DNA from: an uncultured Candidatus Saccharibacteria bacterium
GTDB lineage: Bacteria; Patescibacteriota; Saccharimonadia; Saccharimonadales; Saccharimonadaceae
NCBI GenBank assembly: GCA_947425245.1
Contig: CANDYU010000002.1
Location: 1-64,000 of the forward strand
DNA length: 64,000 nt
Direction: 5' to 3'
The notes below the pieces were generated by a model. That model did no database searches, was not told the DNA's origin, and was given only the letters and a program-made list of their open reading frames with translations. Below are positions 181 to 51,534 of this stretch, piece by piece. The stretch's first letter is position 1, and each line of letters begins with the position of its first letter. The position numbers and the translations under genes are program-made.

Positions 181-249
181 TTGGTTAGGTACGGGTATAG
201 CATGTAGCCAATTCCCTAGAACATTGCACCCAATTTTAATGTATTAATC

Positions 250-462
250 GTCCGTAGCGGGAACATCAATCGCCTCAACGGCTCTGCCCGTGGCTTTGGC
301 GTCGGTAGCTACCTTTGGTCTACTACCTCCTCCCCAGTTTACGGCTCTGGATCAGTTGGCTTAGCGGGTTACAACCTCTATTTCGCTGCTAGTAGTATCA
401 ACCCGTCAACCGGCCCAAGCTTTCGCTGGAACGCTTTCCCCATCCGTTGTCTGGCGTACTAG
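250..462 (+). pseudogene. FISUMP-like lectin cassette A (start-less C-terminal module)
   Basis: This is a 71-codon open segment from VRSGN to PIRCLAY and TAG. The same frame is closed by a TAG at 217-219 and no ATG lies between, so it cannot be an independent gene. The pattern VRSG...GSAR...WS..SPV...GY.L.F...P..GP..R..A.PIRC matches the C-terminal part of FISUMP (Fibrobacter succinogenes major paralogous domain) surface proteins, from my memory of the family. It is one of four copies of identical length in the window. The last bases and the tail after the stop (AGGTTAGATAAGAGCAACTT) are shared with copy B. Its interior has more third-position changes than B and D, so it is an older copy. Likely a silent donor cassette or gene relic. 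Confidence 0.6.
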
Positions 463-481
463 GTTAGATAAGAGCAACTTC

Positions 482-17827: not shown

Positions 17828-17844
17828 CCGAACCACTTCACTTC

Positions 17845-18057
17845 GTCCGTAGCGGAAACGTCAATCGCAACTACGGCTCTGCCCGGGATCTTGGCATCTA
17901 TAGCTACAATTGGTCCACTACGGCTTCGCCCGTTTACCGCGATGGGTCTGCTGGTTTGACAGGTTACTTCCTCGCTTTCACTGCTAGTGGCGTCAGCCCG
18001 TCGGGCGGCCCGTACCCTCGTTGGGACGCTCTCCCCATCCGTTGTCTGGCGTACTAG
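17845..18057 (+). pseudogene. FISUMP-like lectin cassette B (start-less)
   Basis: A 71-codon cassette from VRSGN to PIRCLAY and TAG, lying 17 bases after the RNase HII fusion gene. The frame runs open upstream into the end of that gene but has no ATG or Shine-Dalgarno. It shares the border TTCGTCCGTAGCGG and the 3' end CCCATCCGTTGTCTGGCGTA and AGGTTAGATAAGAGCAACTT with copy A. The interior is closest to copy D. Likely a silent donor cassette or inserted variable-region copy. Confidence 0.65.
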
Positions 18058-18130
18058 GTTAGATAAGAGCAACTTTGTCATATCAAAAATGCAAACGACA
18101 ATCTATAATCAAAGACCTCCAGCATGTACC

Positions 18131-50496: not shown

Positions 50497-50672
50497 AAAT
50501 TATAACTCCAACCTCCTCTACCAATTATCTTTCATTATACTCTAAATCACAGCACCCACCAAAACCAACTTTAAAATTATACTTCCTCCTCGCACCAAAG
50601 ATATTTTCCAAACCATCAGCAAAGAATAAGCTAGTTTCTTAAGACTAAACTCCAAGCAACAACCACCAATGG

Positions 50673-51057
50673 TTTAGGTATTATACTTTTGCTTTAAAGA
50701 CATAGTGCAGTATTAGTATAACTCAGGGCTTAGTTGCTTGTTAGAGGAACTCTCGGAGGCTGTTGCCGTCCAGCCGTAGGAACCGAATAGATAAAGAATG
50801 CTTCGCATTCTTTATCTTGAGGTGACGCCCAGCTGGTAGCGACTTTAGTCGCGTTGGTCGTAGGTTGCGTGTCGCCCGTGACGCTTCTCCCAGGAGATGA
50901 GTGAAGCAGGAATGTGTAACATTCCTGCTTCCGAATCGACGCCCGGAGTTCTAACCTTCAGTCAGACGGGACGACACAACATCCGGTCCGAAAACAAGTA
51001 GCTAAGCCCTGAGTTATGCTAATACTGTATTGTAGCTGCAAAAGTATAATACCTAAA
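50673..51057 (+). ncRNA. Candidate large structured RNA within perfect 20-bp terminal inverted repeats
   Basis: The ends TTTAGGTATTATACTTTTGC (50673-50692) and its exact complement (51038-51057) enclose a second stem of 35 pairs, 50708-50742 with 50993-51027. The only three non-Watson-Crick positions in that stem are G-U pairs when read as plus-strand RNA (A-C on the other strand), which indicates RNA function and orientation. Inside are hairpins at about 50790-50816 (12 bp, GATAAAGAATGC), 50838-50851, and 50903-50931 (13 bp, GAAGCAGGAATGT). No ORF fits. It does not match RNase P, tmRNA, SRP or 6S as I know them. It abuts lectin cassette C. Confidence 0.65.
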
Positions 51058-51067
51058 CTTATCTAAC

Positions 51068-51280
51068 CTAGTACGCCAGACAACGGATGGGGTGAGCATT
51101 ACGACGACCATATGGACCATCAGCCACAGAAACACCTTGAATATTAAATGCTAAATAGTATCCTGCTAAATTAGCCGAATTGTTATAGAAAACAGGCGAA
51201 GCAGTAGCCGACCATTCATAGTTTTCGCTACCAGAACGTCGCAAAGAACTATCGCCAAGATAAATCTGTCCGCTACGGAC
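51068..51280 (-). pseudogene. FISUMP-like lectin cassette C (inverted copy)
   Basis: 71 codons from VRSGQ to PIRCLAY and TAG on the minus strand. The interior is A/T-rich and diverged (YLGDSSLRRSGSENYEWSATASPVF), but the border TTCGTCCGTAGCGG and the end CCCATCCGTTGTCTGGCGTA plus AGGTTAGATAAG are the same as in copies A and B. An upstream in-frame ATG or GTG without a Shine-Dalgarno gives at most a 15-residue lead, so there is no signal peptide. It lies head-to-head with copy D and next to the structured RNA element. Confidence 0.65.
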
Positions 51281-51310
51281 GAAGTGATTGAATGGTTTCG
51301 TCCGTAGCGG
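51270..51310. repeat. Inverted repeat joining cassettes C and D
   Basis: CCGCTACGGACGAA (51270-51283) and TTCGTCCGTAGCGG (51297-51310) are perfect 14-bp inverted copies around 13 bases. They are the 5' borders of the two cassettes. The outer cassette ends (51058-51092 and 51488-51523) are a second, nearly perfect inverted pair. Confidence 0.9.
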
Positions 51311-51512
51311 GTACGTCAATCTGGGCAACGGCTCTGCCCGGTATCTTGGGCATGATGGCTACGGTTGGTCCCCTACGGCTTCGCCCGTTTACAATAATGG
51401 GTCTGCTGGTTTGACAGGTTACGACCTCGGTTTCATTGCTAGTAGCGTCTTCCCGTCGAACGGTCCAGACGGTCGTTGGCTCGCTTTCCCCATTCGTTGT
51501 CTGGCGTACTAG
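51300..51512 (+). pseudogene. FISUMP-like lectin cassette D
   Basis: 71 codons from VRSGY to PIRCLAY and TAG. ATG at 51288 lies only four codons upstream and has no Shine-Dalgarno, so a secreted product is not expected. Compared with copy B there are about 39 base differences in 213 (hand count), 31 of them at codon positions 1 or 2. The tail AGGTTAGATAAAG runs into the TGCTATAAT box of the next gene. Confidence 0.65.
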
Positions 51513-51534
51513 GTTAGATAAAGAATAATCATGC

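Follow-up and report, generated by a model that had tools for sequence, protein, structure and literature searches.

A gene-free palindromic element beside retroelement cassettes in a Saccharibacteria genome probably belongs to a new family of modular mobile DNA

We describe a palindromic element (50672..51058, no strand assigned) in a 64,000-nucleotide stretch of DNA, the window, from an uncultured Candidatus Saccharibacteria bacterium. The window is contig C2 of a source genome of 882 kb in 22 contigs. It probably represents a new family of mobile DNA in Saccharibacteria whose members are palindromic, modular, and devoid of genes; in the literature searched, elements of this kind have not been described for the group.

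The original prediction had recognized a 35-bp basal stem, formed by positions 50708..50742 and 50993..51027 (both +), with exactly three G-U pairs, and recomputation of the pairing agrees: the only non-Watson-Crick pairs are T50717-G51018, T50734-G51001, and G50736-T50999, all of which are G-U on the plus strand. What had been overlooked is the outermost feature, a perfect 21-bp inverted repeat (GTTTAGGTATTATACTTTTGC at 50672-50692 and GCAAAAGTATAATACCTAAAC at 51038-51058), with which the palindrome spans 50672-51058. The three perfect hairpins ascribed to the core are all present. Two copies of a conserved arm with tandem G-A mismatches were detected within the element by covariance model R1, which was built from 50 arms. 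The first (module M1; 50771..50835, +; 66.5 bits, E = 5e-17) is also an exact match to the arm pattern given below and has the layout CAGCC-GTAGGAACCGA-hairpin-TTGAGGTGACGCCC-AGCTG, and the second (module M2; 50886..50949, +; 39.9 bits, E = 3.5e-9) is diverged. Between them, sequence and fold reveal a small 5-bp hairpin (GCGACTTTAGTCGC; 50839..50852, +). The element folds strongly on both strands, with −194.9 kcal/mol (z = −15.1) on the plus strand and −171.9 (z = −13.7) on the minus strand, and no shuffle equals either value. As had been predicted, it holds no substantial open reading frame, the longest frame across the first arm being 75 codons, and it matches no known RNA class: a search of the Rfam covariance models gave no match at the gathering threshold and nothing credible beneath it. 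No target duplication is seen at the window copy.

The element is not a chance arrangement, since a core copy that is 96% identical lies on contig C1 and partial copies occur elsewhere in the source genome: C4 (10.5 kb) has a copy with part of the sequence deleted, and C4, C9, and C19 have shorter ones. The basal stems vary among these copies yet stay complementary; within 22 bp, eight or more two-sided changes separate the window stem from the C1 stem. When the flanks were read and folded, nearly all copies in the source genome were found directly 3′ of a short cassette that ends in the conserved CCCCATCCGTTGTCTGGCGTACTAGGTTAGATAA.

Other genomes contain sequences weakly related to the core, and these have one arm in common. 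It consists of 5′-GTAGGA, a 3-bp helix between tandem G-A mismatches, a variable hairpin, and GACGCCC-3′. The corresponding pattern (GTAGGARVNGA, an 18- to 46-nt hairpin, and GAKRYGACGCCC) is present in 75 of the 174 genomes of the genus, and the reversed pattern, used as a control, gave 0 matches in the genus genomes listed. When 380 genomes were drawn evenly from the phylum, the arm was found only in the same Saccharibacteria family, in two genera; nearly all named carriers are Candidatus Saccharibacteria metagenome-assembled genomes, mostly from the ruminant gut. A scan of genome contigs with the exact core word returned zero matches because the core is too variable, and a search of phage DNA with the element returned none. 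The pattern also matched two viral contigs, which have no paired flanks and were judged to be chance, and matches in Methylobacterium, Spirochaetes, and other phyla were left out, those inspected likewise having no paired flanks.

Compensatory change among the arms is abundant. RNAalifold found two-sided changes in 18 of 21 pairs, and 96.6% of the cells of the arm alignment are paired, compared to 71% in shuffles (0 of 500 reached the observed value) and 38 to 48% in slid controls. GTAGGA is present in 50 of 50 aligned arms, but it was required by the search pattern and is not independent evidence; that pattern makes both GTAGGA and GACGCCC invariant, whereas it does not produce the covariation of the stem. 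The middle 3-bp helix, flanked by the tandem G-A mismatches, accepts a purine-purine pair at its center. The homologs uphold one half of the original prediction, that of a real, highly structured element whose structure is conserved by compensatory changes; the other half, which took it for an RNA, is not supported.

The sites occupied by the arm were surveyed in 148 instances, 13 of which are chance matches outside Saccharibacteria. A tRNA gene precedes the arm on the same strand in 92 of the 148, typically at a distance of 75 to 90 nt past the CCA end, and the 3′ end of this adjacent tRNA (17 to 19 nt) usually recurs beyond the element. A repeat of 10 nt or more was measured in 54 cases; in 28 of them, it begins 18 nt before the CCA terminus, and in 13, it begins 19 nt before it, at about tRNA position 58/59. 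The duplication spans more than 10 kinds of tRNA. A tRNA-Ser unit of the source genome has the 18-nt tRNA end in three copies. The upstream half of the tRNA units holds a complement of the T-stem region of their own tRNA and fits this tRNA better than it fits others (6.31 nt compared to 4.58 nt; Wilcoxon P = 3e-10). The simplest units (L085, L131, L140, and L076) have the order A-X-A′-Y-A, in which A is the tRNA end. A tRNA intron was considered and rejected, since the element lies past the CCA end of an upstream tRNA that is itself intact. A retroviral-like 18-nt tRNA primer would fit in length (position 59 to CCA), yet genomes without reverse transcriptase (RT) have elements, too.

Tandem duplications of tRNA 3′ ends were observed at L137:400-760, L084, and L278:1427-1755, and some of these units have no G-A arm; such arm-less units consist of a terminator hairpin, a pseudo T-arm, and the tRNA 3′ end. 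Since the duplication also occurs in arm-less units (L137 and L084), duplication and arm insertion are possibly two processes.

Other sites are operators and protein genes. At L064, L093, L130, and L134, copies lie within the spacer of what we take to be CIRCE-like heat shock operators (TTAGCACTC...GAGTGCTAA). GCACTCTTGAC is duplicated, in whole or in part, at two of these sites, and regulation of the genes behind them may be altered. Twelve copies are located inside long open frames of conserved genes, encoding Der/EngA, RecX, PheT, lipid-kinase-like proteins (two), ValRS (two), TrmD, methyltransferases (two), a P-type ATPase, and QueA. These inserts are in frame and contribute sense codons; they are copies in relatives, and the window copy is intergenic. 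L148 has an insert at a ValRS site that is empty in L119, and L119 has its own insert at another place.

Could the element be a functional structured noncoding RNA, expressed from the plus strand and selected for RNA folding? We regard this as unlikely, although the very strong fold, the basal stem of the window copy with three G-U and zero A-C, the strong covariation together with a tandem G-A internal loop fixed on one strand, and the position of the tRNA-linked copies on the tRNA strand would all fit. In an RNA under selection, G-U is expected to outnumber A-C on the folded strand. In 135 family members, with stems defined symmetrically and wobble pairs unfavored, the motif strand has G-T and A-C at 6:10 in the outer stems and 29:30 in the inner hairpins, giving 35 G·U and 40 A·C, against 2,100 Watson-Crick pairs, for the whole family (about 2,250 pairs; G-U, <2%). 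Hence, the strand-specific tolerance of G-U that had been read as a sign of RNA selection does not extend to the family, and that reading is further weakened by the orientation of the intragenic arms, of which six are sense and six antisense. That the window copy has three G-U pairs most likely reflects small numbers; G50736-T50999 is common to all five source genome copies compared and counts once. The missing G-U excess and the 6:6 orientation in genes indicate that the palindromes are maintained, or produced, at the DNA level. Furthermore, the copies in housekeeping genes and operators, the variable sets of modules, and the empty Rfam search speak against an RNA. Neither strong covariation nor a very large fold energy proves an RNA by itself, as compensatory changes are equally expected from a palindrome that is copied or corrected at the DNA level; in the present case, it is the missing G-U excess that separates DNA palindromes from RNA.

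The hairpin loops bear on the same question. C(GNA)G loops close 42 of 58 upstream hairpins, compared to 10 of 60 tRNA terminators. Among 122 arm hairpins, 65 have a loop of the C(TT)G or T(TT)A type. Loops of these kinds make very stable DNA mini-hairpins, and the folding of the element looks like a property of DNA rather than that of an RNA gene. The fixed G-A loop suggests that one strand folds functionally, with which RNA and DNA are equally compatible; the tandem G-A arm loop would suit RNA, too, and the absent G-U excess could alternatively result from palindrome correction at the DNA level acting on an RNA gene.

Two cassettes of a diversity-generating retroelement (DGR), which account for the cassette pair named in the original prediction, lie head to head beside the element. 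The first, an orphan with an 86-aa frame that ends in the conserved CCGTTGTCTGGCGTACTAGGTTAGATAA (51059..51328, −), abuts it directly, and the second, also an orphan, is at 51288..51521 (+); further cassettes in the window are at 248-471 (+) and 17842-18066 (+), and genome-wide, they occupy about 60 places. The source genome has one RT (Pfam RVT_1; G000:C11:24172-25356), with an AAC-rich template just downstream. Comparison of 37 distinct cassettes with this template revealed differences at 43.6% of the A positions and at 5 to 12% of the C, G, and T positions, and this A bias is the mark of a DGR. The stretches read contain at least 51 distinct cassette ends, and their upstream open frame never extends beyond 135 codons; therefore, the cassettes are orphans without a host gene.

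It is imaginable that the element is a cis-acting hairpin or cruciform that marks the 3′ side of the variable repeats for retrohoming, and the DGR-type cassettes next to it, the single RT with its A-rich template repeat, and the position of nearly all source genome copies are in line with this. In known DGRs, a hairpin is located just downstream of the target. Nevertheless, we consider a function in retrohoming improbable. Most cassettes have no element or have an unrelated hairpin. Large hairpins unrelated to the element stand 3′ of other cassettes, which makes the 3′ side of a cassette a general hairpin site. Moreover, the same arm is found at tRNAs and in genes, and 28 of the 75 arm-carrying genomes have no RT match. 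Among the 174 genomes, arm and RT occur together in 47, the arm alone in 28, the RT alone in 51, and neither in 48 (Fisher P = 0.17), so the two are not associated. The link to the cassette system that had been suspected from the neighborhood thus holds for position in the source genome but is not specific to cassettes, the arm being present also at tRNAs, operators, and essential genes. The arm family is independent of the cassette system.

An attachment site, or its residue, of a site-specific system (tyrosine-recombinase or integron-like) acting at the ends of cassettes and the 3′ ends of tRNAs is similarly improbable: integrases classically target tRNA 3′ ends, the T-arm and CIRCE targets are dyads, and there are tandem units flanked by repeats of the tRNA end (L137, L084, and L278), but the duplicated 17 to 19 nt follow the adjacent tRNA across more than 10 isotypes, unlike an att core borne by the element, the units are gene-free, and unrelated open reading frames are targeted as well.

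For the family of mobile palindromes that we favor, no mobilizing enzyme was found. Spread driven by the RT was rejected on the grounds of its lacking association with the arm, and a Y1 transposase is absent from the source genome and present in only 8 of the 174 genomes of the genus; neither enzyme tracks the arm. In our model, the relevant folded form would be single-stranded DNA, the G-A arm would be recognized by some protein, and insertion would take place at short dyad-symmetric sites. The simple products may be written as A-X-A′-Y-A, where A would be the flanking target, A′ its inverted copy, and X and Y hairpin modules, as though a polymerase had turned back twice; the stems would then be partly copied from the target. 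From this order, we infer strand switching in repair or replication. In the window, the arms may have been inserted into, or have grown on, a hairpin 3′ of a DGR cassette, and we regard it as probably selfish but tolerated, with a 3′-flank position that barely harms the cassette. A tentative and rather doubtful extension is a new mode of transposition, in which a protein-recognized, folded single-stranded G-A hairpin would insert at small dyads (the T-arm/3′ end of tRNAs, operators, and hairpins) and double strand-switching repair would copy the target in inverted and direct orientation (A-X-A′-Y-A), so that the long stems would derive from host sequence at each site. The 18- to 19-nt duplication of many tRNA 3′ ends and the target-built stems point to an uncharacterized insertion mechanism.

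By structure and insertion behavior, the family resembles the Rickettsia palindromic elements (RPEs), which are known to insert in frame inside protein genes (PMC10969869). Both are dispersed palindromes of at least about 100 bp, with several copies per genome and often in frame in conserved genes, and both occur in reduced genomes and encode no mobilizer of their own. In contrast to RPEs, the elements described here belong to another phylum, have a conserved tandem G-A arm with freely varying stems that are partly complementary to the local target, and prefer tRNA 3′ ends, with an 18-nt duplication. In-frame mobile palindromes in essential genes were previously known mainly from Rickettsia, and an apparently independent family in the streamlined, host-dependent Saccharibacteria suggests that reduced genomes repeatedly come to bear such palindromes, as a burden or as a tool.

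REP hairpins follow a GTAG rule, and the dispersed hairpins of the present family also have GTAG at the 5′ foot, where it is demanded by the search pattern. However, identity with REP/RAYT was rejected because there is no cognate Y1 transposase in the source genome, and the multi-arm composite build and the tRNA and intragenic targets differ, too. Casposons insert at the tRNA 3′ end, which is duplicated and leaves the tRNA intact, and this they share, as do tRNA-targeting integrative elements, with the tRNA-linked units. Unlike in casposons, no Cas1, polymerase, or other gene lies between the repeats, the duplication is 18 to 19 nt, and many kinds of tRNA are used. DGR target hairpins, finally, are matched by the location directly 3′ of DGR-type repeats in the source genome, but not by the copies in RT-less genomes and away from any DGR cassette.

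Other hairpins accompany the cassettes. Upstream of the element, 50628..50657 (+) holds a remnant of another hairpin-element type (AAGCTAGTT...CTTAAGACTAAAC) with a 93% match to copies at L011, L012, and L015, and this type also adjoins other cassettes. A second large type (CACCTGCGTCGAAGGTGTGGTTGGGTTTTCTAGTCT...) was observed at L013:2432 to 2290 (−), L014:6360-6504 (+), and L010:4957 to 4800 (−), and a third (GGAAGCTAGTTACTTAAGAC...) stands beside other cassettes at L011, L012, and L015; both are without an exact G-A arm. The cassettes appear to belong to one DGR with some 50 to 60 scattered variable copies, whose frames of 63 to 135 codons are still open, and it looks as if the repeats of the DGR had spread in the form of mobile or silent cassettes. 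Immediately upstream of a DGR RT, L047:6100-7176 contains a 358-aa open reading frame with no Pfam or NCBIfam match, a candidate accessory protein.
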